Source of the DNA: Panopea generosa
Lineage: Eukaryota > Mollusca > Bivalvia > Adapedonta > Hiatellidae
Assembly: GCA_029582155.1 (NCBI GenBank)
Contig: CM055895.1
Span: forward strand, 47,571,720-47,635,719
Direction of reading: 5' to 3'
DNA length: 64,000 nt
This document shows, piece by piece, positions 196 through 48,299 of this stretch (positions within the stretch are counted from its first letter, which is position 1; each line of letters opens with the position of its first letter). The position numbers and the translations under genes are program-made. Under the pieces are notes generated by a model. The model searched no databases and had not been told where the DNA came from. It was given only the letters and a program-made list of their open reading frames with translations.

Positions 196-234
196 AGTAA
201 GTCTGAGTTTATATATATATATATTGCAGCCGTT

Positions 235-1232: not shown

Positions 1233-1497
1233 GTCAAGAAAATAAAAACACAGAATGTTTTTAATCGGGCTTATTTGCTATGTTATAATGACATAAGAAT
1301 CACACCTCACACACCCTTGAACAAGCTTATTTAAGTTGCTCAAACGCAATTATTAAATAAATGGATTAACAAAAAGACGGCACCTTGACAAGATGTCAAA
1401 CTGTGACATATGTGACTTTTTATTACACTAAGTTCTTGACATACGAAATTCGTAATTATAATAACACTGAGTTAAATGATTCAAAATAACCATTTAA

Positions 1498-1707
1498 TCC
1501 TTTACTCCATAGTTACGCGTTTTCCCGCACCAATCACAGAAGGCCTTTGAAAACAGTGCAAGAAGAGTTCAAATTGCTCGTAACGAGCAATCTGAACACT
1601 TCCTGCGCTGTTTTCCACTCTGTCAGTTAATTTAAACATAATTCACCCAATAATTCAAAAGCCTTCTATACTAGAGGTGTCCAAAGGCGTCTATATGAAG
1701 TAAAGGG
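1498..1707. mobile_element. piggyBac-type MITE (copy 1)
   Basis: A 210-bp element with terminal inverted repeats (left 'TCCTTTACTCCATAG', right '..TATGAAGTAAAGGG') is bounded by TTAA at 1494-1497 and at 1708-1711. It contains an internal palindrome 'attgctcgtaacgagcaat' (1573-1591) inside longer 'aacagtgca..' / '..gcgctgtt' arms. The same element lies in inverted orientation at 46085-46285. TTAA target duplication with CCC..GGG ends is characteristic of the piggyBac superfamily. Copies B (about 17533) and C (about 30791) of the large unit hold an unoccupied single TTAA at the matching place. It has no coding capacity and would depend on a transposase in trans. Confidence 0.9.
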
Positions 1708-3329
1708 TTAAGATATTAACATCATTGTATTTGTGTCGGACTCAAACGAGAGCTCCAAACAATAATTGTTAAATCTCCACAATGTATCTCGGCCGATATC
1801 CCGGTCCTCAAGCCTTAATATTCTTTATGAAAAAGCATTGTTTTTGTACAATTTAGACGGATGTTTAATTCGGTTTAGTGACTGAGAGACAAACAATTTA
1901 GATCCCTGACAGGGCCGGAAGCAGAGATAAACCATAAAGCGATCGGGGAGTACTACTGAGTAAAAATACTAGGAGGTGATTTATTATGATTGTTTTGCAT
2001 ATACTCGTACATGTATGTCTAATGTTAAGACATCCATATTCTATGCCAATAAAAATGTTAATCATACATATTTTGGTTTATTGTAGATTATAAAATCACA
2101 ACGAATCATTTGTGTCAGCTTGCTATTTACTAAAAATATAAATTCACCTGTGTTTTTTATTAATAAAATGTGAATTATTTCATGTTTTTCTATAATTAAC
2201 TCGAGAAATTTATTTCCTAAAGTCTATAAAACGTTTTGTTCATGCTCGACTTGAACCCACCTTAAGACTGGCTCATGATTAAATTTTATAAATTCATAAC
2301 TATTTTCAATAGGTTAACATGTTAACATTAGTACATTCAATTTCTCTGAAGAACTCGGAATTCATGAGCAAGACTGACACAGATGTAAAATGGGCCAAAC
2401 CATCCACTCTGCAGTACAACTGAGAATCAAGAGTTGACAAATACCATATCACTGTTATAAGTCCTACAAGGTTCAATCGTATTATTAACGTACATATTCC
2501 AATGATATGCTCGTCATTGATCCTATATCTGCAATTAAAAACAACAAGGTTTCACGATTACGTGAATTCTGTCAAGATATGCCAATACTTCATTTCATCC
2601 TTAGTTATTCTTAAAACAAAATCCCGGGGTATTCAAATTGGATAACATGTTATGAAATGGAATCCGTCATTGATTGTTTTACAAGACATAAGTACACCAG
2701 TGTTCTATCGCTACGACAAACACAAGTTTGACTGTAATATTCTCTCAAATCTAAAACAACTACATAATTACGTATTTGGTGGACATATTTCCCATTATAT
2801 TTCTTTTTTAAATCCACGTTTTGTGTGCAAACAGTTGTTTGTAGAACAAAAACATTTATGATACATTCCAATTTCCCACTTTATTATAAATGAAATTATA
2901 TCGATTGGCAGTCACTGTGTTACAACTAATTCTCTTTCAAACTCGTTTCTAAATACATCGTGATTCACAAAGAAAAACAAAAAAATGATTCGCATTGACA
3001 GTTGTATTTTAAAACAATTGCTTTTTACAAAAAACAAAAGCGGAGGCGTAAAGAATTAATGGTTTTCTTTGTATTAAACAGCAATTTTGTTACAAACATA
3101 GATTTAGCAATTAATATTGAACTCGTAAGAATTTAATATAAAATAATGTATTCAAATAAAAAAGATTCTTACAAATAATAAGGTTTTTTCCTATAAAACA
3201 AATGAAACACCGTTATTGTATGCGCTTATCATCAGTCGAGAGAAAGGGCAATTAACTCCGCTCTTCAGGGGAAATAATGTTTTATTCCGAAGCAGAATGA
3301 TGAACATAATTTGTTAATTAATTTATAAT

Positions 3330-4110
3330 AAAATAAGCAGACATTGCTTGAGGATGCTCTACTGGATCATAGTGGTATTTATAAATAGACCCACCACATC
3401 TTTACTCAACAAAAAGTTATTTTTTTGAAAAGGAAAAAACATTTCTTTGTAACAAAATAAAGAGTCCTCATACATGGCCCTTATAAATCCCAGCCCATGA
3501 TTTGTCAAAACTTCAATCACCCACTCATAGGGATTTGCTATGAGCAGAAATGCTTTAGATTTTAAAAAGAAACTTTTATTTACACAATGAAGGGAACATG
3601 AAAAATCAGTTTCCCCATAATATTTTTATGTAAAAGAAAAAGATATCTCAATACAGGGTCCCTATATTTCCCATCCCATTGACAGACAGGTTATTGAGAC
3701 GAAGATTTATGAAAATTCCCAAATTTAAACCATATTGCCTCCCAACCGCCTGGCACCTTATGGAAATTCAATCGTTTTTATTTAAATAATAAAATTTACT
3801 GTTACTAGGATATGCTTTAGATCCAAATGGATGAAAAAAATGAGAGTTTTCTGTTATCCTATAGCATTAAGTACTATGTAAAACCCAACAACATCTTACA
3901 GGGCCTGTATACGTCCTATTGCCCCTTGATTTGTACAAACTTGGAACTATTAATCAATTATTTCTATGTCAAAGTTAAAGTCACCTTTCATGCCCCCCTA
4001 TAAATAAAAGCCCCCCCCCACCCCACCCCGCCCTTATTTGTACAAATTTAAAACCCCTAATAGAAGGAATAGAAGAGAAGATTTTTTTCAGAAGCAATGG
4101 CGTGTAAACT
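3330..4110 (+). repeat. Degenerate repeat cluster, specific to copy A
   Basis: This stretch is absent from copies B and C. It repeats, loosely, the phrases 'gatttgtacaaacttgga', 'ccc.tat...cccat.cc' and 'gg.tatgctttagat' at irregular spacing of roughly 200-250 bp. It looks like an old, decayed tandem array that landed in copy A. A C-rich run (4011-4033) is noted separately. No gene is visible. Confidence 0.45.
4011..4033 (-). other. G-quadruplex / i-motif capable run
   Basis: The plus strand reads C9-A-C4-A-C4-G-C3. The minus strand therefore has four G-runs of three or more with single-base loops, which satisfies the usual G4 rule. It is isolated within strongly AT-rich sequence. Formation in vivo is inference. 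Confidence 0.7.
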
Positions 4111-4654
4111 GTATTTAATATCTACTGACAACCGTATGTTTCAAATCAATTTTCTACTAAAAATACATCTGAACAAAAATGGCAAAAAACAACGTCAATT
4201 AAAAACTTCCTGGTAGGAAATTAAATTCATTTGGATAAACAATTTCATCCTACTGTAGAATTATATTTACAGAAAAAAAAATCCAATATCGGTTAGAACG
4301 GATTTTATCGACCCATTCTCGTGTCTATTTTAGAATAAATAGAAAATAATTTAGAGTGAATTGATCATTCCTTATATTTGAATATGTTTGCACTCTTCAT
4401 TTGCTGCTAGCATTTGATTAAATCAGGCTGCCACAGTATAACATGTTTCGTTTACTATCATCATTGCAATGGAATGTAAAGTAAATCATACTACCAAATA
4501 GCTTATAGAAGAATAATTTTGTTTTTATATTCATTTCCCAAACGTTTTATTCGTCATCCGTAAAACACATATTTCAATATAGGATGCTTTTGTACGTTTT
4601 ACCAATTGCACATGTATTATAAATCCAATCGATCAATTTTGAGTTATGATTTGT

Positions 4655-4880
4655 TTGTTTGTTTGAATATTTAGCGTCATTTCTATGCCCTCGAGAGCTT
4701 ACAGACGATCAGTTAACCTAACCACTATTTCCTGGGATATCTCACGATTAGTCGGTTCTCAAGCACATCCAGCACCCAAAGTAGCTAATAGTTCCCCACA
4801 TGAATCAACGGAGTGAGACGAATCACGACCCCTTGGATTAATATTAGCCGCTTCCGACTGAGCTGACCGGGCTTGATTGA
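4655..4880 (-). mobile_element. tRNA-derived SINE (family 1), ancestral insertion in copy A
   Basis: Minus-strand family-1 SINE with tail 'tctgtaagctctcgagggcat', body 'gattcatgtggg' and a deleted, damaged head ending near 'gcccggtcagctcagtcgg'. It lies at the same point of the unit as the SINEs at 20435-20705 (B) and 35785-35912 (C), between the same flanks, so it was inserted before the unit was triplicated. Its stronger decay than the 7582 copy fits that age. Confidence 0.85.
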
Positions 4881-5281
4881 AAATAGGAACAAGAAAACAT
4901 CGGTAGTTGTCATATGTTTCTATATTTCATGCCGAAAAAAATCAATTCGATGTTTTTTTGCAAATACATCTATGTTTGAAATTTGCTTACAAGTATTGCA
5001 TGGTCCGTGTAGTGTGGCATTGCTAAAAATGGTCACAGAAAATAGAAAATATTAACATTGAGATAGCTTTTACTTATTCAAAAATGTTTAAAATATATCT
5101 GACGCAGGCCGTCAGTTCCAAGGAGACCTTTTACACGCCCAAAATACAACCAAGAATACTTGTATTTAATTAAATATAAAAAAATATTTACTTTTGAGAG
5201 TATTGGAGTTTCTCAATGATCCAAATAACCAGCATTATTAAAAAGCATGGATCACGGTTAAAGAAAATTAGTCGGCTTGGT

Positions 5282-5443
5282 TTTATTGAAGCTGTGTTTA
5301 CGGCTTGCGTTTATTGAAGCTGTGTTTACGGCTTGCGTTTATTGAAGCTGTGTTTACGGCTTGGGTTTATTGAAGCTGTGTTTACGGCTTGCGTTTATTG
5401 AAGCTGTGTTCACGGCTTGGTTTTATTGAAGCTGTGTATAAGG
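5282..5443 (+). repeat. 28-bp minisatellite, 5 full units plus a partial sixth
   Basis: Units of 'tttattgaagctgtgtttac' + 'ggcttgcg' start at 5282, 5310, 5338, 5366 and 5394, with a partial unit from 5422. Units are nearly identical, so the expansion is recent. Copy B has a single unit at the same position (about 21006-21028, 'tttattgaagctgtttataagg'), so the array arose by expansion within copy A. Confidence 0.95.
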
Positions 5444-6429
5444 GACATCGTATTCGTTACTACTTATGACCCATAGCACTGACTTAACGTCTCACAGAAA
5501 ACTTCTTTTTGCGCTGTTGTTAAATTATATGTAATGCACTTCTAGATCACCGAAAATGTAACTTATGATTTAAGTGTCTCGTTTCCATTTTGTCATCTTT
5601 TTCTTCAAATATGCTGGAATAGCAGTTGGTTGACCAGGTCGTTTTTTACAATTTCATATGGTTTAACAACATTCACTTTGTTTTGATATTTTCGTACACG
5701 TGCTGTTGTGTCACTGCACGCCTTCAAACTGTCATATATTCATCAAACAGCACTATAAAAGTGTTCTTATATTTACATCTGCACCAAGAAACATGACCAG
5801 GTTAAGCATTTTCGACAAAAATCCAAACCAATACATTGTATTTTGGGGAGGTAAGTTGTTAAGTGAAACGTCAAGCACTTTTCTAATTTGGAACGAGCTC
5901 CAATTTGTATATTCAACAGTGGTCGTTACAACAGCATTAACTAAAATAAACATTTCCAATAATCATGAACAGTAAAGTACATGCAGACAGAAAATTGATA
6001 ACAGCGGCTTCTCAGACTTTCTAGAAACTTCAGACGTAGTATTCTATTTCAGGCTACTTTAAATGAGTTTTATGAGTCCAAAGACATTAGTTATTAAAAG
6101 TAAGGAACGACGTTTTACGGCCACCATACAAATCTAGTTACATTAAATTCCCATGGCACCGTGTTATTAGTCAGTTTGCCTCCATCACAAACGTGACAGC
6201 TAAATATCAAAAATAGGTTAATGAGTCCAATAGAGAGGAAATCATAACAACAGTTAGTAAAAGTACGGAACAAAGTCCGACGGCAACAAAACCAATACAG
6301 TTGTCTTAATATCCACGCTACCGTGCTATTCATATGTTAATTTTTTGCAATTACTGTCCTTTATCGAAAACATGCCAGCTAATCATTAAAATAGATGCAT
6401 CTTTTCCCATTGTCTTTTAAATGTATGAG

Positions 6430-6615
6430 CTAAAATCGTCACATATATTCTCGTCTTGGTACTAAATAACACTTAATAACACGAGCCGTTGATATTGGTT
6501 ACATGCATGCTGGTTCTCGTTGCGACAAGGAGTTAAGTCTACAGGGGGTTGGCAAGTTGATTAATATATAGCAGAAACATGATAACATCGATGACGTAAC
6601 TTCCCATTATGGAGA
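6430..6615 (+). promoter_or_regulatory. Highly conserved non-coding block, copy A (candidate promoter or enhancer)
   Basis: This block is far better preserved among the three copies than its surroundings. Positions 6544-6580 are identical to 23098-23134 and 43473-43509. Visible elements are a repeated 'catgcatgctggttctcg' upstream, 'gggggttggcaagttg', a TATA-like 'ttaatatatag' (6561-6571), and 'atgacgtaacttccc' (6591-6605), which resembles a CRE/ATF half-palindrome followed by an ETS-type core. No ORF is conserved through it: the short frames opening at the ATG of 'catgcatgctgg' end at different lengths. A regulatory role is inference from conservation only; recent gene conversion is an alternative. 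Confidence 0.45.
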
Positions 6616-7581
6616 TTTATTATATGCATTTGCTTAATGTGATTTCTCCCTTAATACAGTCGGTCTATAACTTAGTTTTCTGCGAGGAAATTTGAATAAT
6701 TAAAGCACTTGTGTTAATATGTCAATTATATTTTACTTTGATGAAGTCTTTAATTGAATTTCAAAGTTAAAATAATATAACTCTAAATAAGATTCATAGA
6801 AAGGTTAGAAAATATTTAAAGGGACATTCAGCAATTTTGGAATAGAATTTTAATCATGTTCACGCATTAAACACATATTCTATGTAAATGAATATATAAT
6901 CAAAAGACAACATGAATATTCAAATCTTAAATTTCCATCCGAAGCTTCATATTAAAGAACTAATTAACATTTCTTATGAAGTTAAAAAGAGGTTTGCAAG
7001 GTTTAAAAATGCCATAAAAAAATATAAAAAAATACAAATTGGTATTTCTTTGAATATTTTGTATAAAACCGATAAACATTGATGAAAATAGAAACGATAT
7101 TGAGGTGATACACACGTTCTTTTGAAATTTATTTTCATACGTGCATCATAGAGATTTATAATTTTCAATACTAGTTTGACGTAAAAATGCATCAAAGATG
7201 CCGTCTGTCTTTTTAAATTAGTAAAACATACACACTAAATAGTGCTGTGAATAGAGTGTAGGCCGCTCATACTTGATATTGCCGGTTCCATCCCAAGATT
7301 GAACTGAACTGGTTTTATCAAGGGCATCAGAAAAAATAGTTGTAATATATAGATATAAATTGATAGTTTTATTTTCCTTTATCAAATTCTGGCTTTACGG
7401 AACATGATCCCTAATTCAATAATATTAAAGAGACTAAATTAAAACCCAAGCAAGAATTCAATATTTAAATTGCTGAAATGAGTTATTTTAAACCTTTAGA
7501 ACAGAATAAAAACTACTTATATTTCAATGGAATGTCGTATGTTCAATGATTGCTACCATGGTATGTACTTTGTCTATAAGG

Positions 7582-7860
7582 CCGGGCCCGATTAGCTCAG
7601 TCGGTTACGCATCTGACTATCAATCCAGGGGTCGTGAGTTCGAATCCCCCGCCCGGCAACAGTCTCTGGATGATTGATATACGACATTGTGTCTAATTAT
7701 CATTCGTCTCTCACCACTGATTCAAGTGGGAAAGTTATCAGTTACTTGCGGAGATGGGGCGTGCTCGCGTACTGGTTAATCCCAGGAAACAGTGGTTAGA
7801 TTAATTGATCGTCTGTTAGCCCTCGATGGCATAAAATGACGCTAAATATTCAACCAACCA
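7582..7860 (+). mobile_element. tRNA-derived SINE (family 1), complete, with target site duplication
   Basis: Complete copy with a perfect 12-bp target duplication 'ttgtctataagg' at 7570-7581 and 7861-7872. The tRNA-like head (7581-7658) has a 7-bp acceptor stem GCCGGGC/GCCCGGC, box A 'tagctcagtcg' (7593-7603) and box B 'agttcgaatcc' (7637-7647), the RNA polymerase III internal promoter. The body carries 'cattcgtctctcaccactga' and 'actggttaatcccaggaaac', and the tail 'ttagccctcgatggcataaa' ends in 'ttcaaccaacca'. It is absent from the same site in B and C, so it inserted after the triplication. It needs LINE enzymes in trans to move. Confidence 0.95.
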
Positions 7861-9059
7861 TTGTCTATAAGGAGAGGAATTCTATCGTTTCGATTATTTT
7901 GTATTTATATATATTAGACAATGTTTACCAAAGATGTACATTATGAAATATGTTTAAACTTATACATATTTGAAAAAAATAAAAAAAATACGAGATTCAT
8001 ATAAAATACTTGGTAGGTGTCTTTAAATGTAAAGTTTAATAGGTGATGTTAAGAAAACAATAATTTAGAAATGTTTTACACGTCTAGGAAATCAAAATTA
8101 CAGTTAAGTATATTTCCTGCTTTAACTTTAATTACATCAGAACAAGTTTTTATTATGTTTAATAAAATATGGTGAAAGAATCAATTATTCTATTGTGTAT
8201 GGGATTTTTTCACTTTTTAAATGGGAAGTACATGTTTTTAACATCTGAATTTTTTAATTATCTGTTATGCGGCTAGCGATTAATGCTCACACACTAGGGC
8301 GTTATTATGTTGAGATGAAACGATTTATTAAGTCAACTTGTCATAAATCTCAATATATTTCCCACGTTTAGAATAAATTTTCATTTAATTGCTTTACAAA
8401 AGTTATGTATATGATTAATTCACATAACTCCGCAGATTTATATTACATAAAGTTACGCTTTAGTTGCTTATTCAAGACAGTTTGCAAATTGAATTTACTT
8501 AACATATTACGCCATAAGCAATAGTTTATTCATGAAGAAATGATAAAATACTATAAGAAAATATGATGGGAAACTTACTTCACTGTAATATTTTACATGA
8601 TTATATATTTTTCCTACTTCATCAAAACGAGAGGCTCATAAAAGATAACTATGTTTATTACTTGTTCATGTGAAATACTGTAACGTTACATATTTATTTT
8701 CATGTATGTGGTTGATGGTTGAGCAAATGCTTCTTTAAAACTCATTTTGACATGCTTACTAAACAATAACTGATATAAAAGATAAACTGGGTGACAGAAG
8801 TAGTTTATCTTAAGTACCTGTCATATTCCGACCCAGGTCTATTATATGCTAATGTGAAAGCACTGAAGTCCCTGTCTGTCTCTGGATTCTTAGATGTTAA
8901 TGCTTTTACCAAACTATGACGTAATTCAACTTCCGTTGAAGGAACTGACCAATCAGCCGAGTCGTATGTGACTGCTTTGTAACGGTCCCTTGCGGGGAGA
9001 GTACGGATTGTTTCTACAGTCTACAATATAAGTGTTTAAATCGTAATTTTATATTTGAA

Positions 9060-9955
9060 GGTTAGGCCTGCTTAGAGAGGTTTTCTGTCACAATTCAAAT
9101 ATCCTCGCGCAAATCGAATTAGGTGGGAAATGATAAGCCAATAATGTAATGAAGCTTGCTATACTTTGCACGTTCAGTAACGGAACACGTTTTTTAACCT
9201 TAGTATCAAACCTCTTTAGTTGTCAAAAAAAAGACACCATTCTGACGTCATTTCACGATTACTGTTTACTAAAGACTTGAAAAATTGTATTAGAAGCGTC
9301 CTCGCTTTGCGCCTAACATTAAGAGGATATTTCTAGATCTGGTAGTCCGGTTTCAGTATAATGTAACTGGGTGGGGTATATTGTGTTTGCGGCATGGTAC
9401 ACCTGTATGACAGAGCTCAAAATACTGTCTCACGTAGATAACGTCGCGATATGACTGAAAAATTGTGAAAGTGACACAAAACAGCAACAATAGCAACACG
9501 AACACTGTATGGTTAAGAAATAACCAGTGTTGTATTAATCTCTTTCACAATATTTCCAAATCGTTGACGACATTTTAAAACCAATATAAACATACTTAAA
9601 GCACGTTATACATCATGTTGTTGACAAATATATCTTTGTAAGTACTCCCATTATCACGGATAATTTTCTTGGATTACAAAATAGACACATTGATTCTAAA
9701 CAACAAATTAACTCTCTCAACACCGTTGTTCGATCTTATATTGTAACATTAATAGATCTTCGTCACATAGAACAAAGTGCTAGCGAAAACATCGTAATAT
9801 GAAGCAAATCCACATACATTTTACCAGATTAATAAACGTGAAGGAGTTGCTTCGCTGTGTCAGTTTGTAATCGTTTTAGCACGTCTGTAGGATAATAGTA
9901 TACCAGTTTTACAATGTCTCCCTTTATGATGTGACGATGATAAGCAGAGCTATAT
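9060..9955 (+). other. Insertion specific to copy A
   Basis: Copy B runs directly from the block matching about 9045 (28620) into the block matching about 9960 (28685), so roughly 0.9 kb is extra in A. It holds the dispersed repeat at 9334-9540 and no ORF of note. Its ends show no clear terminal repeats by eye. Confidence 0.5.
9334..9540 (+). repeat. Dispersed repeat, copy 1 (second copy at 35135-35340)
   Basis: Shared landmarks with 35135-35340 in order: 'tcagtataatgt.a.tgggt', 'ggggtat', 'tg.gtttgcggcatg.tac', 'tgacag.gct.aaaa', 'actgaaaaa.tgt.gaaagtg', 'cagcaaca'. The same kind of sequence is, as I recall, widespread in bivalve genomes, but I do not know its class. It has no ORF and no obvious tRNA-like promoter here. 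Confidence 0.7.
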
Positions 9956-10154
9956 TGGCTGCACTTAATAATTATATTTAAGCTCTCTAATAGCTAATTT
10001 TGCTATCGTTCGAAGGTCATTACACTTACTGTCACGTTTTCGGTATATATGTATTGCACTTATCATGCATTGTTTACATCAAAATGATTATTTAATTTTC
10101 TTTAAACATTCAGAAGTGTGATATTCATTCCGTATAATAAAGTTTTGGTCAATT

Positions 10155-10240
10155 ATCACAGATATCGTGATCGCGTATTGATTCGAACTAGATCTCTAAA
10201 TTTACAATTAGATGCGTAACCGACTGATATTTACGGGACT
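10155..10240 (-). mobile_element. tRNA-like SINE head remnant, copy A
   Basis: On the minus strand the segment reads 'atcagtcggttacgcatct' in the box-A position and 'tagttcgaatc' in the box-B position, as in family-1 SINE heads. No recognisable SINE body follows. The matching site in copy B (28895-28975) also has it, so this remnant predates the duplication. Confidence 0.55.
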
Positions 10241-10254
10241 GCTTTTGTAAATAT

Positions 10255-10621
10255 TTGAACATGAACATCTTTGCGTATTGTACTCTGTTTTTTTCCATAG
10301 ATGATCTATACAATACTGTAGTAGAACTGGGACGGCCAAATATCTACCAAAGAGAACCCCCCTCTACTAATTGTTCTATGTCAATAGTGACACCAAGACA
10401 TTGGACGAGCATTGTATCCGAACTAACCAGATGCGCTGGAAGTTTCCATCAATTTTAGAAAAAATCACGACCGAAGAAGCACAGGTTAGAATATTTTATT
10501 GAGCGCAACAAAGATGTAGATTACTTGAATCGATGTGCTGCAAACGTCAATTATGCAAACGGCAATATACTTGAGAATGATTTTATCTGAAAGCTGTTGC
10601 AATTAATGGACAAGAAAACAA
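10255..10621 (+). pseudogene. Broken counterpart of the copy-B short ORFs
   Basis: This stretch matches 28937-29307 in copy B. The upstream part still has an open frame of 67 codons (10255-10458). The downstream part corresponds to the 55-codon ORF of B, but here its ATG is ATC, a 2-base deletion near 10485 shifts the frame, and one CGA codon has become TGA. Past these breaks the frame and stop position ('aaaacaatcatttaa') are kept. I do not recognise a protein family. The substitutions are a mixture of silent and changing ones, so there is no strong sign of purifying selection. Confidence 0.4.
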
Positions 10622-11384
10622 TCATTTAAACGCTGTTAAATGTCTTACAAATCTGTAACAGTGTAAAAGAATGTACATCTTAATAATCGTACTCCAGGAC
10701 ACAATAATGGTAGATGATGTTCCTCACCATCACACAATTTGTGTCCGTATAGTTTATCAAATTAGTCGGAGGGATATTATCATTGTCATCGGAACAACTT
10801 GATTCATCAACATTAGACATACACAGGCCATTGTTCTATTCCAATTTGCCAAATAAACACTCCATTGGACACCTTTATTATGGCAAATAATTCCTGGTTA
10901 AAGGATATCAAATGTTAGCAGCGGCAGAGAATAGAATCTTAACAAAGGTCTGTATTTTCAAAAGAACTCTCGAAAATAGAATACAACTTAGTCCGGTACC
11001 AAAGAGGGGATGGGGTGCATGAGGGTATTGCATATTCAATTAACCCTAACAGACAGACCCAACAACGCCGAGTCTGATAATTCCTCGGTTGCGTTCTACA
11101 CTCCTAAGGGATCTTTTTATCACATATCAATGGATGGTAAATAGGGCCATGTCTTTCAAGAGACGCAGTCATTAAAGAAGCAATATAAAGCAATGTTATA
11201 GTATGTGCTACTTACCATAGTTATCAAAGGCAGTGAAAACAGGATTACAATACTTGATTAAAAGCTAGTAACAAAATATTGAAATCTGGTAATCAGCGAC
11301 ACTCAACAATGATATACAAACAATGATAATACATTTACATACGTTATATATATATAAAAAATTACCTCACATAAAGATGATTCC

Positions 11385-11745
11385 TCTATATTTCCTCTTG
11401 TCCGGACTGTATCTTCTTCAGTTGTGATTGGAATTTTAAATAAATCAGCACAAATGTTCACTAGGATAAGACGATATGTCGTGCGAATGACTTGCGTCTG
11501 TCCGTCAAAGGTCTAGGTCATAGCTCAAGGTCAAGTATTTTAAAATCCAATGTATACATTGTGTTTCCTCTTGTCCGGACCGTATCTTCTTTAGTTGTGA
11601 TTGGAATTTTATATAGCTTGGCACAAATTTCACTAGGACAAGACGATGTGTCATGCAAATGACTTGGGTCTGTTTGTTAAAGGTCAAGGTCATAGCTCAG
11701 GATCAAGTGTTTGGAAATCAAATGTATACACTGTGCTTCCTTTTT
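11385..11745 (+). repeat. Satellite-like array, left part (about 2 units)
   Basis: Units begin at 'gtccggac' (11400, 11574) and contain 'gtatcttctttagttgtgat', 'ttggcacaaat', 'cactaggacaagacgatgtg', 'aatgacttgggtctgtt', 'aaggtcaaggtcatagctca' and 'atccaatgtatacactgtg'. The array continues at 16203 on the other side of a LINE insertion. It separates copies A and B of the large unit. Confidence 0.9.
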
Positions 11746-14601: not shown

Positions 14602-14648
14602 ATCTTTGGATTTTGATAAAACTTTGCTATTTTTATTAAGATGTGATA

Positions 14649-29136: not shown

Positions 29137-29139
29137 ATA

Positions 29140-33932: not shown

Positions 33933-34000
33933 CAGAAACTCTGGTTTCTCTACATACTGGTAACATTTTCACCTTTTATTCAAGAAAAAAAAACACACTA

Positions 34001-37540: not shown

Positions 37541-38156
37541 TAACTTGCCAATTCAGCTTAAGAGTGAAATTGGTCGATAATTAGACGCCAGGTTTGTCTT
37601 ACATTTTTTGAAGAGTAGGGCTGATTTCCGCGAATCTGGAAATTAAAATAAATATTGCGTATATTTCAAAACTTTGTGACTCATTTTATCATTCCCAACA
37701 GATCTGTTTGGTCAAGGATATCGATCATATCTTCTATTTCAGGCTTTGTTATAACAATATTGGAAAGAGAATTATTAGTTATCAAGTTATAATTTGGGAA
37801 TTTAATATCAGTTATTGATTGTTGAAATAGAAATGAAATAGTCATTTAAACAATTTGCTTTTCTTCGTCATAATAAAAGTATGTTTCTTCCCCAGCATCT
37901 GAGGTTCTTTTGAAAGGGGTATGGATTCAGTATTTTTGTTTTCCTTAATAATCTGTATAAGAAGTTTCCAGTAAAGTTTTCGATTTGGATTTCTGCTGTC
38001 TGAAACTAAAGTTTCCATATTATTACAGTACTGTTCTTTGTTATGCGTTTTCAAATTATTTACTTTGTTTCTTAACTGTTTGATTTAGTCCAATCGTCTG
38101 TTCTTTGCGTTCGTACTGTTTTTTTCCTTTGTCTGTCTCGTCGTTTTAGTTGTCCG

Positions 38157-38525
38157 TCAGATTTCAGAGTCGTACCATGGTTTGTCAGTTGGTCTAATGG
38201 TTATATCTTTAGAAGAAATACATTTTTGCATAAAATTTAAAATTGTTTTTGAAAAATATTCACAAGCTGCGTTTATGACATTGGTGGAAATAAACTCGCA
38301 ATCAAAGTTATGTATCATATCATTCAATTTGTCATTATTACCTCTTTTATAAAACCAAACTTGTCTAGTAAAAGCAGGAGTTGTAAAACGTGAAAATGGG
38401 ATATAAATATAAGTAGCTTTATGGTCACTTATTGTATTCAGAACATCTAAAGTTCCAGATTTGAGAGGTTTATATATATCTGATATTGTTGCGAGCCGGC
38501 TACTTCTCAGGTGGTTGAAGATCAA
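38157..38525 (-). pseudogene. LINE endonuclease C-terminal part
   Basis: A 122-codon frame with RLATISDIYKPLKSGTLD, then NTISDHKATYIYIPF. The SDHxA motif is the last catalytic motif of AP-like LINE endonucleases. The tail (FTRQVWFYKRGNNDKLND..DKPWYDSEI) is the normal linker toward the reverse transcriptase. An in-frame stop lies just upstream. Confidence 0.85.
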
Positions 38526-39559
38526 GTTAGTGATTTAAACTATTAAATCACTGTTTCAAGTATAAACTTAGGCAGACTCCGCTTTAGATATCTCAATTAA
38601 ATAAAATAGGAAAGCAAAAGAGTAAACAAGATTATGCTCAATTTTCTATACTTTAATTGTCAATCAGATAATCATTAAAAATCTACAAGTGTGAGAAACA
38701 TGAATAATAATAATACAAAATGCCAACTTAATTCACTTAAAATAGACCTAAATAAATCAGTTTCCCAAAAATGCCTATAAGTCTGCTTTATTGTTCTATA
38801 TTTATTACACTATGCTTAGAGCTAATTCATAAAATGTGTAAAATTATAAGCTTTAGAAATTAAAATTATTTAATACTAACTAAAACTTCCAAAGAAAGAG
38901 ACACGGAACTTCAGGTGCATTCATAAAGAAAATGTGCGGAGTCCAGAATTCAGTTTGCACTGACTATTTATACATAAACTGATCCCGGAAAAAAATGTGC
39001 TGGAATCCCACAACATAATAGTAAGGACTCCCGAAAAATGACGTCGTGAACGTCGTCCCGAATAAAATATGTGGGAAATCCCGCATTAAAAACTACGGGA
39101 ACATCATCCAGCAAATAACGGGAACTGGGAATAAATTCTACTTTAAACCAGTGATTAAACACTATAAATGTATTAAAGTATTACAATAGACTTTATGAAT
39201 AAAAAGAACAAATATTAAACTACAATTTCATACTTTTGTATTAATTTTGCATACATTTTAAAGTATTTATTTTAACAAAGAAAAACTTAGTCAATAATAA
39301 ACTCTGGAACTGTTATGTATCTGGTAACCTAGTTACAGGCTCCCATAATGCTTTACTACAACAACAACAAACATAGTTTCCTCATCAATGACAGGTGCTC
39401 TTTTGAAAGTGATAGATCGATTTAAAGAATATACATGTAGTTATAACTATGACATAAGATGATAACTGACTAGATAAGGTAAAAAAGCTATGAGTGAAAT
39501 AATGATAACACAGATTTAACTTTTTTAAGTAGACTTAGCTTATAGAAATAGTTATAACC

Positions 39560-39870
39560 TTCACCACTTGCGTATACAAAAATTTACACAATAGCACATT
39601 TTACCGGAATATCCGAGCATAACATTATTAGTATTGGATCTATCAGAGTTGATGTTGTTTCAGTAACTCTGGTTGGTTTTGTAATGACATTTGTTAGGTT
39701 GTTTAATAAGTATACTATTTTTAAGATGATTGTTGTTAGCATTTAATTGGTCCTCGTTAGTACTTAAACTATATTCTTTGACAAATCAAGAGCGTTTTCG
39801 ATACATGTGTTAACATTATTAATAAAATTCATGTAATTATTGCCCCTTTATCTTTTCTGTAAAAAGGGAT
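39560..39870 (-). pseudogene. LINE endonuclease middle fragment
   Basis: Minus-strand translation gives FINNVNTCIENALDLSKNIV, NEDQLNANNNHLKNSILI and, after a frameshift, TNVITKPTRVTETTSTLIDP. The TxPTRVTxxTSTLIDP phrase is typical of CR1-like endonucleases downstream of the GDFN motif. It sits inside the inserted block, so it may be from a second element or be displaced from the LINE around it. Confidence 0.65.
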
Positions 39871-40103
39871 ACACCAAAATACATATTTAATATTTATTAA
39901 GGTCCTACACCAAGCCAGCCACTATAGACTTAAGAGAGAAAAATCTCCTGAAGTCATTAGACAACATAATTTTCTTATACTATCATCTGCTGTGTCAAAT
40001 TATATTTTATTACTGTTTGATTTTTGTTTTAGCTCGAGCTACAATCTATAATTTGTTTAGACTGGTGTGTCCCTTTAACATTAATGTATATATGTGTATT
40101 CGG

Positions 40104-40345
40104 TGAAAGGAAAAAGAAAGTATACATACCTATAAACGTGGACAGGTCAAGGTACAAAAAATGTATTGCATATAAATTTTGTATATTTATATTTCATCAT
40201 ACTGTTGAATCAAAAAACAAACATTTAATTCATTTCAACGCAAAACAATAAGAAAAAATCAGTTCATTTTTCCATCACATGAATATAGTTAGTCAATAAT
40301 GAAATAATTTCAAAAACCAAAATGTATGCTTTCTTTTTCCTTTCA
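40104..40345. repeat. Inverted repeat pair, 24-bp arms
   Basis: Left arm 'tgaaaggaaaaagaaagtat' + 'acat' (40104-40127) and right arm 40322-40345 are reverse complements with a single difference; flanking 'tatat' sequence extends the similarity outward with a gap. The 194-bp interior contains no ORF. A MITE-like element is possible; the arms are low in complexity. Confidence 0.6.
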
Positions 40346-40482
40346 GTGTATATATATGAATGTATGTTACAACTTGACTGATATATATATTTGTACGGTT
40401 TGTTGAGGGATGGCCCACCCCGACCCTCACAGACCTATTACGGGGTGATTAAATGGATCACTTTTCAGTGATTGAAATTAAA

Positions 40483-40519
<37 letters not shown>

Positions 40520-40539
40520 ATTAAAAAAAACTACAGGCG

Positions 40540-41130
40540 TGCTCGGGGAACGGTATACACAGCACATAAAATATTGGTTTCTTTTGCTTGACTTCAACAC
40601 AAACAGAATCAATTAATGGACATCCTCAGCCTAATCTTCTTTTAGAAAAGAGATGATTATAAACATAGATTAAAGTACCACTAGATAAGCGGTGTTGTCT
40701 TTACGAAATGGTTATGAGAAACCGTCTATATTAATATCTATATTTGCAATTTCATCTGTTGAGCTTCTGTAAATCAAAGTATATCAAACTCCATAAAAAC
40801 AATTTCTATGAAATTAAACTTGTTTCGAATACTTCGAATATTAAGATGTAGAATAGAAATACAGTGTGTCCTCTTTCTTTCTAATAAAGGACCTGGATTC
40901 TCGGCAATATCCCCAGACAAGAGCACTAACAACATAATAACGATTGTAAAGTCTAAGTTTAAAACACTGTCCAATAAAGAATCATATGTGACATGAAATA
41001 CTTCAATGTTGTTATACTTAAGTAGCTTAAAAAACATCATCAAGAAATACAAGTTCAAAGGATTGGTTTTAAATACACATGGTCTTGAAACTGAATGTGT
41101 TCTGTTGTAGAAGTTTTCGATGATCACTCT
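40540..41130 (-). pseudogene. LINE ORF2 N-terminus with 2A-like motif and start of endonuclease
   Basis: The 117-codon frame (41127-40774) reads, in order, a hydrophobic stretch (FTIVIMLLVLL), the 2A-like motif SGDIAENPGP (40888-40917), and ISILHLNIRSIRNKF, the opening of an AP-like endonuclease, followed by FDIL; out-of-frame traces with TEA and DGF wording continue to about 40680. 2A-like sequences make ribosomes skip a peptide bond before the last proline and are known at this position in some CR1-like LINEs. Here the usual glutamate of D-(V/I)-E-x-N-P-G-P is alanine, so activity is uncertain. It probably belongs to the same element as 35913-38528. Confidence 0.75.
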
Positions 41131-41585
41131 CTAAGCGTTGATATCACTACCCATTAGGTAAAACTACAGGAAATACAAATGAGAGCGACCGTCTAGAACT
41201 AAAACGCAAAATCGACATCCGCCTAACTAATAATCATTCAGCACAGAAAGAAAAAAAAACAACAAAGTGGAAAGAAGGTGGTAAATACAAGTAATTTCAA
41301 GTGGAAAAGAGATATTCTTAAAATCAAAAATTAAAAAGTTGGTAATTGTAATAAGAAGTATGAAATTTATTTAATCGTTTGATTCGAAACAGACTGTTCA
41401 ATAAACAAAACATCATTTTAGTGATAGAGTATTAAAATTTAAGTACAACATAAAAAGATATAAAGGGAGAACATTTCAATGACCATTAGTAGCGTATTCT
41501 TAAATTCACAGTCGACATTATAACAGTACTTTCGACTCGTTTGTGCACACACGCACACATGCATGCACACATACAAAATGAACAA
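41130..41585. other. Unassigned stretch, nothing identified
   Basis: AT-rich sequence between the LINE N-terminal part and a minisatellite. It does not align with the A or B copies of the large unit, so it is part of the inserted material in C. Confidence 0.4.
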
Positions 41586-41817
41586 AAGCTTGAACAAATG
41601 ATATATACTGCACATACACACAATCCAACAATCCAACACAATAATACACAAAAGTTTACACAAAATAGTATATACTGCACATACACACGTTCCAACACAA
41701 TAATGTACAAAAGCCTGCACAAAAAGTATATACTGCACATACACACATTCTAACACAATAATGTATAAAATCTTGCACAAATAGTATATACTGCACATAC
41801 ACACAGCCCACACACAG
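41585..41817. repeat. Minisatellite, about 59-bp unit, 4 copies
   Basis: Each unit has 'agtatatactgcacatacac' + 'ac', then 'tccaacacaataatgtac' and 'aaaag.ttgcacaaa'. The first unit contains an extra 'aatccaac'. The minus-strand frames through it encode repeats of 'VCAVYTI' wording and are not genes. Confidence 0.9.
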
Positions 41818-42002
41818 ACAAGTACTTCTGTATATAAACATATTTATATATCAGCCTTTACACAACAGTTCATACTCATACACACATTTGCATACTCGAT
41901 CGCGTGGGTAGAATACGATAGAAAATACGTTTTGTTTTGCATGAATTTAGGGTATTTGCATTAGTATGAATGTATTGACACTGTTAATGGCATTAAAATC
42001 AT

Positions 42003-42165
42003 ACACATTCATATATAAATACACATTCACATATAGTATTACACATACACATGCCCATATACACATGTACATACACATGCACAAATGCACATATACACAT
42101 GCACATATACATGCACATACATATGTACATATGCACTTGCACATGCACATGCATATATACACATT
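42003..42165. repeat. CA/CATA-rich microsatellite
   Basis: Irregular runs of 'acacat', 'gcacat' and 'atacac' over about 160 bp. Long open frames on both strands (Thr-His or Cys-Met-Val rich) are products of the repeat. Confidence 0.9.
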
Positions 42166-42198
42166 TTCGAGTGGATTGAAAGACCCCAAAAAACGACA

Positions 42199-42642
42199 TT
42201 ATTTAAAACCACGCACCAGATAACGGGGCAACATTCTGGCCAACCTGCAAAGAAGTGTGCTGGAGAAAAGAATCTTTGAAGTTTCATGAGAGCACTTCAA
42301 TTCTAATATGTTCGTACACATACTGTATTGTAACACTGCACACCTTAAAACTGTCATATACTCATCCAATTGTTTCCAGTTTAATCCAAACCTGACCGAA
42401 CTTGAGATTGTTCCAATTGTCTCATTTACACCAAGAAACATGACTATTTTAAGCATTTTCAAAAAAAACTCCGGACTCAAGTCACTTAGAGGAGACATCT
42501 GTGAGACCTTAAACATTGCTATATTTGTGAGCGTCATAACATGAGCTCTAAGATCCCCAAAATAAAGACATGTATGTCTAACAGGGGACGTAACGACAGT
42601 ATAAATAAAACCGATTGGATAATCCTGATCAGTAAAATACAT
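42199..42642 (-). CDS. 147-codon ORF, unrecognised, overlaps a duplicated block
   Basis: Longest uninterrupted frame in copy C outside the LINEs, on the minus strand. Central wording is KMLKIVMFLGVNETI and DEYMTVLRCAVLQYSM. In copy A the matching stretch (5690-5960) keeps FLSKMLNLVMFLGAD and DEYMTV in minus-strand frames but with stops between them. No family is recognised, no signal peptide is obvious, and its right end runs into copy-C sequence of unknown nature. It may be a pseudogene exon or chance; I lean to non-coding. Confidence 0.2.
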   Translation of the reverse strand: MYFTDQDYPIGFIYTVVTSPVRHTCLYFGDLRAHVMTLTNIAMFKVSQMSPLSDLSPEFFLKMLKIVMFLGVNETIGTISSSVRFGLNWKQLDEYMTVLRCAVLQYSMCTNILELKCSHETSKILFSSTLLCRLARMLPRYLVRGFK

Positions 42643-42834
42643 GCGTACAGAAAAAATGACAACAGGGACCTAAGACTTCAGACGTCCTAGATACCTCTTA
42701 CGTTGTGTTCTATTTCCAGGTATATTAAACGAGATATATGATGCCAAAGATAACAGTTAGTCATTGTTTGGAAAGGCGGCTTACGGCCCAACACACATTT
42801 AGTTTTATTTAATACCAATGCTTATTTCTTGCAA

Positions 42835-43080
42835 AGGGTCCTTCGTGGACTAGTGGTCTAAGGCACCGTCAGAAGATCACTTGCCTCTCACCGCTAAGGT
42901 CGTAGGTTCGAGTTCTGCTCGCTCCAAAAACTGTATGTGAGAAAGTTTCAAGTTACTTGCAAGTTTCTTACGTTCTACTCAGTCTGACTCAGTCTGAGGT
43001 CTTCCTCCACCAGTAAATCTGGACATGACATATACAACCTGAGATGTGTTGAAAATTGCGTTAAATCCCATTCAATTTTT
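42835..43080 (+). mobile_element. tRNA-derived SINE (family 3), with target site duplication
   Basis: Flanked by a perfect 10-bp duplication 'tttcttgcaa' (42825-42834 and 43081-43090); copies A and B keep the empty site ('ttttttgcaatt', 'tttcttgcaact'). The tRNA-like head (42836-42925) has 'tggactagtggtctaaggca', a long variable-arm-like insert and box B 'aggttcgagttc', suggesting a class II (Leu or Ser) tRNA origin. The body has 'ctcagtctgactcagtctga' and ends in a T-rich tail after 'gcgttaaatcccattcaa'. It is younger than the triplication. Confidence 0.9.
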
Positions 43081-43337
43081 TTTCTTGCAACTACTGTCCT
43101 TTATCCTAAATTGTCAGCTAAAATTTAAAAGAGCTCTATTAGTCAAGAGGCGCTGAAATAATCACAACATTTAGTCAAAGTAAGGAACTACGTTTTATGG
43201 CAACAACACAATTTCAGTTCTATTTAATACCCACGCTACTGTGCTAATTATATACTTATTTCTTGAAACTATTGTCCTTTATCGAAAACATGTCGACCAA
43301 ATATTAAAATCGATGCATTCTTTTTCCATTGTCTTTA

Positions 43338-43550
43338 AATATATGAGCTAAAGTCGTCAAATAAATTCTCGTCTTGGTACTAAATAACTCTTTATAACAC
43401 GAGCCATTGATATTAGTAACATGCATGCTGGTTCTCGTTGCGACAACGAGCTAAAACATATTTAAGTCTATAGGGGGTTGGCAAGTTGATTAATATATAG
43501 CAGAAACATAATAACATCGATGACGTAACTTCCCATTATGTAGTTTTATT
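43338..43550 (+). promoter_or_regulatory. Highly conserved non-coding block, copy C
   Basis: Counterpart of 6430-6615 and 22968-23180. It holds the 37 identical bases (43473-43509), the TATA-like 'ttaatatatag' and the CRE-like 'tgacgtaacttccc' exactly as in copy A. Function is inferred. Confidence 0.45.
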
Positions 43551-45017
43551 ATGAGCATTTAGTTGATAATATTTCTTCCTTGGTACTTATTTTTTTGAGA
43601 ATTAAAGTACTTTCGTTAATCTGTCGATTATATTTTATATCGATATTTGTCTTTAATTTAATTTCGAAGTCTTTTAAACAATATCAATGTCTCATTATAT
43701 GCGTTCGGTGAAAGTGACAATAAGATTCATGGAAAGGCTTTGAAATATTTAATTAGACACACGGCAATTTTGGAATGGAACTTTAATCATGTTCACGCAT
43801 TAAGCACACATTATGTAAATGAAAATATAATCAAATGAAAACATTAATCTCTAAGTATTACTATCCGGAACTTCATATTAAAGAAATAATTTACATTTCC
43901 TTTACATTTAAAGCAGTCCTGCTAGTTTTGAAAGTATGAAATTCAATAAAAATCATAAAAAATACAAACTTATATTTTTTTAGGTATTTTCTATAATATC
44001 AATAAAAACTTGATTAAAACCCTAATAAGAGTTCAACATTTTAATTGCTGAAATGCATTATTCCCATGCTGTTCTCAATATATATCTTTAATACTTAATA
44101 AAAACTACAAGTACTTATATTTAAATGGAATATAGTTACGATCGTATGTTCAATGCCATCATCATATGTAATTTATCTACACGTCTCACTACTATATTAC
44201 TCGCCCTATTACTAATGTGTGTGTTAGTGATAATGACACTTTTGATCATTTCCCATTGTACTGTAGCTTGTCAATTAATCGGCTCTCCAACGGTTTTAGT
44301 AAAAAGAACACGGCGTCGTTAACTATAACTATACAATATATAAATTGAATAGCAATTTTAATAGCTTATACGCTGATAATTTTCGTAAACATTTCGTAAA
44401 GTTAAACCAAAGTATATGTACGTATAAGATCGATGTATTTAGTTATTTGCCCGAGTTCATGAATGTTTTATGTGTGCCTCTGCTGAATGTATGAAAATGC
44501 GCATACCTGTAACTTTTAAAGGCAACCAGCTGGTCCAGGTTGGTGGGAAAATTCATGTGTGTTGATAGCACTATTTTTAATAACATTCATTATAAAACCA
44601 ATATTGATGAATTAAATATACTGATTTCAAATGAAGAGATATTAGATATACATGATTAGACATCCATGTACAAACTGTACGTCTGGCCTCGTTGGGACAT
44701 GCCTTAATATGTACAAATATGTTATTCATGATATGTTGCCCTTTCTTAATGTTTTATTAAATGTAATATTTGAAAATGGAAACTTTCCTGTGCAATTGGG
44801 AGAAAGTATTATTTCCTAAATACACAATAAAGGGTCTGTAAATGATCCAAACAATTACAGAGCAATGTCATTAATCAATTGTCTTTGTAAGATTTTACTT
44901 CAATATCGAATAATTGTTTAACTAAATGGTATGATACATACAATAACATAATTGATGAATCGCACGCTGTTTCCGAAAACAGCACTCAACTATTGATAAC
45001 ATAGTTACGTTACAATC

Positions 45018-45550
45018 ATGATCCAAAAGTATTTATCATGTAAAAAATGTAGATTATATTGTATGTTTATAGATGTCTATAAAGCATTTGATAGTATTCA
45101 ACATAATAAGTTATGGAAAGCTTTTATTAGGAAACATATTGGTGGTGAATTTATTTTTATAATAAAAGTAAACTTAAATCATGCGCAAAATCTGGTCACT
45201 ACTTAACAGACTATTTTTGTTGTGATATTGGAACAAGACGAGGCTGTAAAGCAAGTCCGATAATTTTCTCTCTATTTATCAATGACCTTATCCATGTATT
45301 CCGCAAACACTGCAATAATGGTATAATTTTAACACAAAAAGTGAAAGACATCTTAGCTCTGATGTTTGCTTATGCCATTTCGTCTGTCGAAGACACACCC
45401 GGAAACTTTCAAAAACAAATCAATATTACAAAGGAGTTTTGCGACTCAGAAGGTATGAAAGTCAATCAAGATAAAACAAAGTGTTTTTCTACTTATATCT
45501 CGGTGCTTATTTTATTCCAAAACTTGTATGGTCAAAACATAAATATATGA
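45018..45550 (+). pseudogene. LINE reverse transcriptase core, YADD lost
   Basis: The first frame (45018-45206) has FIDVYKAFDSIQHNKLW; the region 45205-45340 gives GTRRGCKASPIIFSLFINDL in another frame; the second frame (45341-45550) has LALMFAYAISSVED, where FADD is expected, then EFCDSEGMKVNQDKTK. Replacement of the two catalytic aspartates by Tyr-Ala and the frame breaks make it inactive. Confidence 0.9.
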
Positions 45551-45773
45551 TGGCTCTTGTGTTTTTTTAACCCGGAAGATATGTTAAAATTATTTGATAG
45601 TACAGTTAAACCTATCTTATGCTACTGATCAGAAATGTAAATATTAATACTCAGAAAAAATTGAAAACATTCAGATACGCTTCTATCAACAATATGGTGC
45701 TCTATCGCAAAATACAGCCAATTATTTAGCTTTTGGAGAGTGCGGGCGAAGCCCTTGGACAAAACTCATACGT

Positions 45774-46620
45774 ATGGAATCAAACAGATATCCGAAACAA
45801 AGTTACTGCATGCTTAAAACTAGGCATGAAGCAGGAAAAAATAATTGGGCCAGCAAAATGAAACATCTTTTGTTTTCTGTCGGTTTTGGCTACTTTTGGC
45901 CTGCACAAGACCTAGGAAATGACATAGTTTTCATAAATCTTATTACTCAAAGACCAAAAGGTTGTGCCGTACAAAAATGGAACAGTGATCTCGAATTTTC
46001 ATCGAAAGCAGACCATTACAAACATTTTAAAGCATTGCTAACTCTTGAGTGTTATTAATCAGCTGAACTTTCATACAACCTTAACCCTTTGCTTCATAGT
46101 TATTTTCTTGGACTCTTCCAATTTGAAAGAATTAATTCACCACCTATCAGCAATTGGTGAATTATGTTTATATTAACTGACTGAGTGGAAAACAGTGCAG
46201 GAAGTGTATAGATTGCTCGTCACGAGCAATCTTAACTCATTTTGCACTGTTTTCAAAGGCCTTCGCGTATCTATGGAGTAAAGGGTTAATAGATCGTTAT
46301 CAAATTTTCGACTTTCAACTCATTCGCTTCGTATTGAAAGAGGCAGACATGAAGATGTCGACAAAAGTTTGAAATTTTGCCCAATCTTTTAAAACAATAA
46401 TGTTTTTATAATCGAAAATAGATATCATTTCTTTTTTTCAATGCTCAGTTTATGACACAGTTCAATCTACTTATTTCAAACCACAGTTGTTATTATACCA
46501 AGATATCAATTTTTTACTCTTTACTCACTCATGTCCAAAAAAGAAAGTTATGTAATTATTAGTATTGTAAAATACATTTGTCATGCTTTTAAGTCACGAG
46601 CTTTTCTAGTACAAGAATAA
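45774..46620 (+). pseudogene. LINE C-terminal region interrupted by a MITE
   Basis: The first part (45774-46058) reads MESNRYPKQSYCMLKTRHEA..GKNNWASKMKHLLFSVGFGY..DHYKHFKALLTLECY. After one stop the same frame runs to the TTAA at 46081. Beyond the MITE the frame resumes with RSLSNFRLSTHSLRIERGRH, as expected for this protein type, and ends near 46620. The region upstream (45600-45770) gives TVKPILC and ENIQIRY wording in shifted frames. Confidence 0.8.
46085..46285. mobile_element. piggyBac-type MITE (copy 2) inside a LINE
   Basis: A 201-bp element bounded by TTAA (46081-46084 and 46286-46289), with CCCTTT..AAAGGG ends and terminal inverted repeats 'CCCTTTGCTTCATAG' / 'CTATGGAGTAAAGGG'. The internal perfect palindrome 'agattgctcgt-c-acgagcaatct' is at 46210-46232 inside 'aacagtgca..tgcactgtt' arms. 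It is the same family as 1498-1707, in opposite orientation. It was inserted after the LINE. Confidence 0.93.
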
Positions 46621-46989
46621 GATCTATACTTTAAGTAATTAGCACACATTTTGATAATTAGCTTTTCTATGTATTTTAGTATGCATGTTCAATATACTTT
46701 AATTGCATTTCTAAAATAAGATAATAAGGTAAATTGCTTCTTTTCGACATTTTAATAAAGTAAAATTATTAGCAATGCCATCCATTTGCTTCGAGCATTA
46801 TAGTTGTGTTCTATCCAATTGATAAAACTATTTAGTAAACGTCAGCTTCGTTTATGTAATATTTATAAAATGTTTTGAAATGAGAAAATGACTGTTTGAA
46901 ATTATTGTTAAGAAATCACTCTCTATGTATTGTATAGATTTGTATTATGGGCCGGTGGCCTACAATTCTGAATAAAATTTTGTAGTGTG

Positions 46990-47345
46990 TTGTATCGTAC
47001 TACACAGTTCCGCCCATATATCCCCACTGTCATATGACTCTTACACTTAAAAAATGTAATTTGGTTTTATAATATTTTAGAATGGTTCATAATGTTTATG
47101 ATTCCTTGATGAAGATGAGTAAAGCAAAATACATTACTGATGTTAAAAGTAACATTTATGGGATTTCAGCATATGCATGTATTTATGAGCATATGAGGAC
47201 TTATCTTATGGTGTTACTGTACCATTTTTTAAATAAACACCAAGCTGGTCAACCAGCCTGCTATTGTGCATTTTTTCGTGGGATACATTCCTGCAATGTA
47301 AAAAAACAAACTTTGTAAATAAATTCTATATGGTATTGTTTTATT
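46990..47345 (+). repeat. Unassigned stretch with a dispersed repeat (partner at 59740-59860)
   Basis: Between the LINE end and the resumption of copy C. Part of it (about 47125-47235) resembles 59755-59870: 'catt.ctg.tgttaaaa', 'ggatttcagcatatgcatgt', 'ttgaggactt', 'gtgt.actg.acc'. A 78-codon frame (47082-47318) covers it; the partner has stops in the matching frame. No family recognised. Confidence 0.45.
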
Positions 47346-48299
47346 ACCGTGGTGAGACCTTATAAGGAGAGGAACTATGGTAGATAATTCTACCGTTTCG
47401 GTCCTATTCACATTGTATGTATATTTGTTTGCAAAAGATGTACATTATGAAATAAATGTGTTTAAACTAATCTAATATATATTTGAAATTAAAGTATCAC
47501 ACTTTTTATAGAGCATATTGATAAGTGTCTTTCCTTATACAATTTAATAGGCGCGGTTACGAAAACCATTTTTTAATCTAAATTACTGTAAATGTTAATT
47601 GTTCTTGCTTATTAAACTGTAATTGTATTAGAAAAAACATTTTATAATGTAAAATAAAACATGGTGATATAATCCATTCTGCTATTGTTTCTATTACGAT
47701 TTTGTTCATTTATTTCAAAACAGTGAGTTCGTGTCTAACATGATATCGTTTTCTTTATAATTGTCTGCTATGTGAATATAGGTGAATTCCAACATACAAT
47801 AAAGAGCTATAATGTTGAAATTAAACTATTTATTAATCCAACTTATCATCAATCTTAATATATTTACACGTTTGAAATAGATTTTTCTTTTAATCATTTA
47901 ACAAAAGTAATTTATTTACAGAACTCCCCAGATATTATTGTATCTTATTTGTATTATATTATTATACTTGACGTCTACAATAACGTCAAGTTTCGAACAT
48001 GGAATATATTTTTATCACAGATGTAGCATTGTTATCGGTTCATAAAACGTCGACAGCAGGTAATTTTATTACTTCGTGCTTGACAGCGAAGAAATTGAAA
48101 AACAAATGGTAAAAACGTTTTGTTTTGGTTCATCTTTCATGTAATAACTAGATTTGATACAATACCCACACTTGCGCTTGTAAAATGGTTTAGTGTAATT
48201 AATATTTTTTTATTTAAACTTATTTGCCATATTATGCTAATAGCAATAATTCAACACGAACAGACGACGACGACTACATGAAAATATGACGCAAAAAGA

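Follow-up and report, generated by a model that had tools for sequence, protein, structure and literature searches.

The window analysed here, a single stretch of 64,000 nucleotides, contains three head-to-tail copies of a unit of about 10 kb, termed A, B and C, which are best explained as an old and by now decayed tandem segmental duplication (probability roughly 0.75, a figure that applies to the duplication and not to the function of the core described below). Within each copy, a core of ~220 bp has evidently, as judged between the paralogues, evolved much more slowly than the remainder of the unit. This core, kept unusually alike in all three copies, is the new element of the analysis and is likely, though unproven, to be constrained at the DNA level, as an enhancer or promoter would be. 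The coordinates of all features are collected in Table 1.

Table 1. Location of the three copies, their conserved segments and the repeats and insertions associated with them
Feature	Position	Strand	Basis or remark
Copy A	1299-11232	+	Collinear chains to B (19 blocks) and to C (12 blocks, one of them a dispersed repeat)
Copy B	17360-30274	+	Collinear chains to A and C; start and end alignments
Copy C	~30652-48295	+	Chains; start by profile; end by profile match 48217-48295, E 2.4e-4
Conserved core, copy A	6410-6630		218 aligned columns, 86.7% invariant across three copies
Conserved core, copy B	22953-23184		Three-way alignment
Conserved core, copy C	43331-43559		Three-way alignment
Second, weaker A-B island, copy A	10459-10705		Best window of 60 columns matches B at 95%
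Second, weaker A-B island, copy B	29135-29368		Contains a 55-codon plus-strand ORF, broken in A
SINE-like dispersed repeat	961-1215; 7551-7860; 20423-20698; 22546-22877; 33650-33924		
Tandem repeat, period ~172 bp	11391-11741		Left of the LINE in the A/B spacer
Same tandem repeat family	16207-17312		Right of the LINE; to 17068 with a TRF period of 318 bp, then more copies up to 17312
LINE-type retrotransposon remnant splitting the A/B spacer repeat array	12189-15649	-	Pfam; ORFs
Retrotransposon insertion in copy B	24764-26949	+	RVT_1 E 1.4e-15
Part of the insertion in copy C between 35.8 and 42.3 kb	36191-41130	-	ORF pieces
Insertion in copy C	44180-47365	+	Reverse transcriptase split over two frames

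Three collinear copies of a unit

Sensitive BLASTN joined the copies, all on the same strand, in collinear chains of 19 blocks for A-B (4279 aligned columns, mean identity of 73.3%), 12 blocks for A-C (3560 columns, 71.5%) and 13 blocks for B-C (2689 columns, 76.5%), confirming the head-to-tail arrangement that a sequence-only reading of this DNA had proposed. The first A-C block (910-1009 with 30522-30620) belongs to a dispersed repeat and was left out of the bounds, and the A-C chain comprises 11 blocks once the flank of A is removed. Controls yielded no comparable chain. Reversal of the second sequence left 0, 0 and 1 matches for A-B, A-C and B-C, respectively, and the best chains among 20 dinucleotide shuffles per pair scored 39, 37 and 51 bits, whereas the real ones scored 2427, 1664 and 1933 bits. 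When block order was permuted 2000 times per pair, the longest chains reached 11, 9 and 11 blocks (mean lengths of 6.6, 4.7 and 5.0) compared with the observed 19, 11 and 13; for A-C and B-C, the margin over chance is narrower by block order than by chain score. Some matches between copies lie off the chains and represent dispersed repeats, among them one that we take to be of SINE type. The chains exceed the reversed, shuffled and permuted controls, which argues against short dispersed repeats in unrelated order.

The starts of the three copies, which are approximate, and the ends of A and B were derived from chains, start and end alignments and profiles, and they lie close to the bounds proposed previously (A 1320-11290, B 17333-30340, C 30623-48290). 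The earlier estimate of ~10 kb describes the general extent of the unit but not every copy: C ends at the equivalent of ~A 8570, the final ~2.7 kb of the unit (A ~8.57 to 11.23 kb) being absent, and insertions extend B and C beyond 10 kb. Farther along, at 58888-59027, 140 bp match the tail of A and B (profile E of 6.5e-11); this piece might be the displaced rest of C behind a large insertion or else a dispersed repeat. Profiles of the 12 three-way blocks detected no fourth full copy in the window, returning beyond the three copies internal sub-repeats and weak matches, one of which (59578-59663) has an E of 0.42. The array is thus tandem, as had been claimed, but at three copies "large" overstated it.

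Relationship and age of the copies

In the 12 three-way blocks (2179 ungapped columns), informative sites group A with B 240 times, A with C 205 times and B with C 243 times, which describes a near-star relationship; as the copies are nearly equidistant, they would have arisen close together in time. The blocks differ slightly in topology (p of 0.02) and strongly in conservation (p of 1.5e-5). The identity of A and B is 77.3% (JC K of 0.27) over 3670 ungapped columns, taken from 18 of the 19 chain blocks with two trimmed to exclude the SINE-like repeat. At an assumed 1-3 substitutions per billion sites per year, the duplication would date back ~45-135 million years. Together, the chains, the controls and the near-star relationship give good support to an ancient segmental duplication, one of the origins suggested beforehand.

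Insertions, junctions and copy-specific history

The copies were described at the outset as diverged yet collinear, each with its own insertions, and the block identities of 71-76% and the copy-specific retrotransposon insertions bear this out. The junctions differ: A and B are separated by ~6.1 kb occupied by the repeat array and the LINE, B and C by ~380 bp. The LINE remnant in the A/B spacer matches RVT_1 (E of 1.9e-21), Exo_endo_phos (E of 2.2e-7) and zf-RVT (E of 9.1e-7), and the array that it splits may be akin to the BIV160/Cg170 satellites of bivalves. The retrotransposon in copy B is flanked by an 83-bp direct repeat (24682-24763 and 26950-27032, 90% identical), both sides of which match a single stretch of A at ~7976-8062. 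As these sides are 90% alike, against 77.3% between A and B, the element inserted well after the duplication.

In copy C, the ORF pieces of the first insertion look LINE-like by eye, which we take as a provisional assignment, and the three minus frames of 36000-41500 gave no Pfam match. The second insertion gave one RVT_1 match above the Pfam cut-off (E of 2.7e-8) and another below it (E of 6.8e-5; 23.1 bits against a cut-off of 29.6). A and B further differ by ~1.2 kb, at A 3055-4295 relative to B 20085; parts of this segment (A 3055-3336 and 4220-4295) are also found in C, and B has therefore lost at least those parts. TRF detected arrays in single copies, with units of 28 bp in A and of 41 and 97 bp in B. 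The window as a whole is AT-rich (GC of 32%, CpG observed/expected of 0.93) and contains LINE-type reverse transcriptases and many minisatellites, which mark it as eukaryotic; the repeat of ~170 bp and the SINE-like repeat point to an animal, probably a bivalve mollusc.

A slowly changing core in every copy

Sliding windows over the three-way alignment revealed a single clear island, the core. Outside the block that contains it (b6b), the 1780 three-way columns are on average 63.2% invariant, and no stretch of 218 columns exceeds 71.1%; no second island common to the three copies was observed in the aligned unit. The core maxima were compared with 5000 column permutations, which ignore regional variation in mutation rate and use aligned blocks chosen by BLAST: windows of 80 and 120 columns were equalled in 0 of 5000, those of 50 columns in 3 and those of 30 columns in 9. 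In the alignment of A and B, identity is 0.905 inside the core compared with 0.765 outside. With these two copies alone, only the longer windows stand out, the core maxima being reached by 1267 of 5000 permutations at 40 columns, 447 at 60, 12 at 100 and 0 at 150. Short windows outside the core can also attain 88%, as one of 40 columns does across the joint of blocks b3 and b4. The second, weaker island shared by A and B (Table 1) is equalled by 447 of 5000 permutations for its best 60-column window and by 21 for its best 150-column window, and its profile found no counterpart in C.

The core is not GC-rich (33-36%), and no open frame runs through the whole of it in any copy. Structured RNA in the core found no support: whole-core folding is no better than that of shuffled sequences (z of +0.8 to +2.2 in six tests; alifold z of -0.28 and 0.36), and no Rfam family matched at the gathering cut-off in the window. 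Among 90-nt fold windows, one (copy C, minus strand) has a z of -2.1. The sequences TGATTAAT and TATATA stretches are invariant across the copies, and TGACGTAA is found in the cores of A and C and is changed in B. We take TGATTAAT and TATATA to resemble Pbx-Hox and TATA sites and TGACGTAA to resemble a CRE, resemblances that constitute weak evidence. An exact core pattern of 37 bases was absent from viral_contigs (0 matches), and the segment 43112-44019 of copy C gave none in plasmids; these tests are weak, the collections being non-eukaryotic.

The most likely of the explanations considered for the slow change of the core, although at somewhat less than even odds, is selection on its DNA sequence as a candidate cis-regulatory element, an enhancer or promoter. 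An unlikely alternative is that the cores were kept alike by local gene conversion or by a locally low mutation rate, the rest of the unit being neutral. Tandem copies can convert one another, and the slight differences in topology among blocks are consistent with such events, as are a long run common to B and C, which in the wider block b6b lies outside the core or extends across it (reached by 22 of 2000 permutations), and the agreement of A with C at 59 of the 60 columns of A 6543-6602. Inside the core, however, the longest pairwise identity runs are ordinary (reached by 904, 329 and 1851 of 2000 permutations), the pair identities are similar (0.908 for AB, 0.913 for AC and 0.904 for BC) and changes unique to one copy are evenly spread (8, 10 and 9). 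Even constraint therefore fits these data better than conversion between two copies, although some gene conversion around the core is possible, as suggested by the B-C run and the varying topologies.

It is quite unlikely that the copies are transcription units of long non-coding RNAs with the core as their promoter. That each copy has one slow core, carrying TATA-like and, by our naming of the motif, CRE-like sites, agrees with this proposal, but the change of the CRE-like site in B, the ~63% invariance of the remaining aligned unit and the negative Rfam and folding results argue against it. With respect to other RNA genes, ARAGORN (bacterial code) identified no tRNA in the window, and the search of Rfam gave one sub-threshold snoRNA match at 5858-5933 (E of 0.58).

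Coding capacity of the unit

Read-through translations, with X at each stop, were scanned against Pfam in six frames of 1-11300, 17250-30500 and 48300-64000; the A/B spacer was covered in two of six frames. In copy C, both strands were covered at 30600-35500 and 42200-44200, the minus strand at 36000-41500 and the plus strand at 44200-47350, each in all three frames. In the frames scanned, no domain exceeded the cut-off other than the retrotransposon domains RVT_1, Exo_endo_phos and zf-RVT, located in insertions or the spacer; the RVT_1 matches indicate that the scan works on read-through frames. Matches below the cut-off were T4SS_CagC (unrelated; E of 0.024), one Exo_endo_phos_2 and one piece of RVT_1. 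None of 42 HSPs of at least 90 columns displays codon-phase bias (lowest p of 0.08), and the gaps between copies are mostly not multiples of three in length. For the frames scanned, a coding gene in the unit was rejected on the basis of the Pfam results and the lack of codon-phase bias. The statement of the sequence-only reading that the unit has no obvious gene holds for six frames of A and B and for C where scanned.

These data also bear on the proposal that each unit is a former gene, or its promoter and introns, now a pseudogene in a decayed tandem gene cluster, which we consider improbable. The best shared ORF pair (B 17593-17766 and C 30854-31027, minus strand) encodes 58 amino acids that are 69% identical, and the second pair (A 10501 and B 29179, plus strand) retains 55 codons in B and is interrupted in A by a stop and a frameshift; together with the invariant stretch of the core that we read as TATA-like, these ORFs would fit a gene cluster. 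The 58-residue pair, however, whose DNA is largely absent from A, has 18 amino-acid-changing against 4 silent codon differences (NG86 dN of 0.18, dS of 0.22, dN/dS of ~0.84), and the second pair gave a dN of 0.085 and a dS of 0.14 (dN/dS of ~0.6) over only 26 codons, too few to judge. By these estimates both pairs look close to neutral. In addition, the peptides of the two ORFs had no match in the PDB, and, as described above, results were negative for the HSPs and, the LINE excluded, for all six frames of A and B.

Origin of the copies

That the unit is a very large mobile element was also suggested initially, and a low-copy element of ~10 kb without coding capacity, three of them side by side, is highly improbable: the surroundings are rich in transposable elements and some rolling-circle elements are known to form head-to-tail arrays, but the junctions differ, the Pfam scans found no transposase or Rep, and comparison of the start with the end of each copy (±200 each, both orientations, 300 shuffles) revealed terminal repeats, direct or inverted, in neither A (scores reached by 214 and 55 shuffles, respectively) nor B (217 and 276), copy C giving a direct score reached by 225 and an inverted match of 19 bp that 10 of 300 shuffles equalled, the latter at a truncated end.

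Under a tandem segmental duplication, ~10 kb without a recognisable gene would have been triplicated head to tail over a brief period, with unequal crossing-over or replication-based repair as the simplest routes. Afterwards, the copies drifted independently, as their deletions, minisatellite growth and copy-specific retrotransposon insertions show.

Comparison with known systems

The locus resembles other tandem segmental duplications in that its copies are collinear, head-to-tail, at one place and in the same orientation, with later insertions of their own. Catalogues of segmental duplications usually require at least 90% identity; the blocks described here average 71-76%, and the case is therefore too old or decayed to be listed in them. 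It also differs in that one core has been kept. This core is slow, non-coding and unstructured in every copy, similar to the conserved non-coding elements of paralogous regions, although here the conservation is between paralogues only. Among the titles listed for bivalve segmental duplication or duplicated conserved elements, none refers to this locus, and no paper was returned for a 17-base repeat string. The bivalve satellite family BIV160/Cg170 has a period of 158-170 bp (PMC5139131). The period of the A-B spacer array, ~172 bp (with one of 318 bp, roughly two units, as well), is near this value; the array differs in lying in the spacer, outside the unit, and the likeness described is one of period.

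Implications of the triplicated locus

Were the core merely slow-mutating or converted DNA, the locus would be an ordinary decayed duplication. Tentatively, the locus may instead be a triplicated regulatory one, in which three paralogous 220-bp elements have long been under selection while the ~10 kb around each decayed. Three nearly equidistant copies provide an internal yardstick of drift, and the core constitutes a concrete, testable regulatory candidate within DNA that carries no annotation here. If the triplicated regulatory locus is real, nature would have carried out a mutagenesis experiment on a single enhancer or promoter, with a neutral yardstick alongside.

Repeats within and beyond the unit

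Of the three old head-to-tail copies (A, B and C) of the ~10 kb non-coding unit, copy A bears a small foldback element with arms of 33 bp each, separated by 1 base and 88% complementary. A related piece is found in C. A dispersed repeat of ~300 bp, which we take to be SINE-like, occurs in both orientations, and its sites in different copies of the unit are at non-equivalent positions. The retrotransposon insertion in B is flanked on both sides by an 83 bp direct repeat, apparently a target-site duplication, of unusual length.

Beyond copy C, six-frame searches of positions 48300-64000 (nearly 16 kb) returned zero Pfam matches up to E 0.1. This region contains a minisatellite that lies outside the unit (7.1 copies of 49-bp units, 91% matches) and, 10.6 kb past the end of C, a stretch of 140 bp that a profile search matched to the A/B tail (E 6.5e-11).

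Positions of the repeats in the window
Feature	Location	Positions
Foldback element	A	1494-1690
Foldback arms	A	1549-1615
Related piece	C	46148-46298
SINE-like repeat		961-1215, 7551-7860, 20423-20698, 22546-22877, 33650-33924
Direct repeat	B	24682-24763, 26950-27032
Minisatellite	beyond C	50014-50360
Tail match	beyond C	58888-59027
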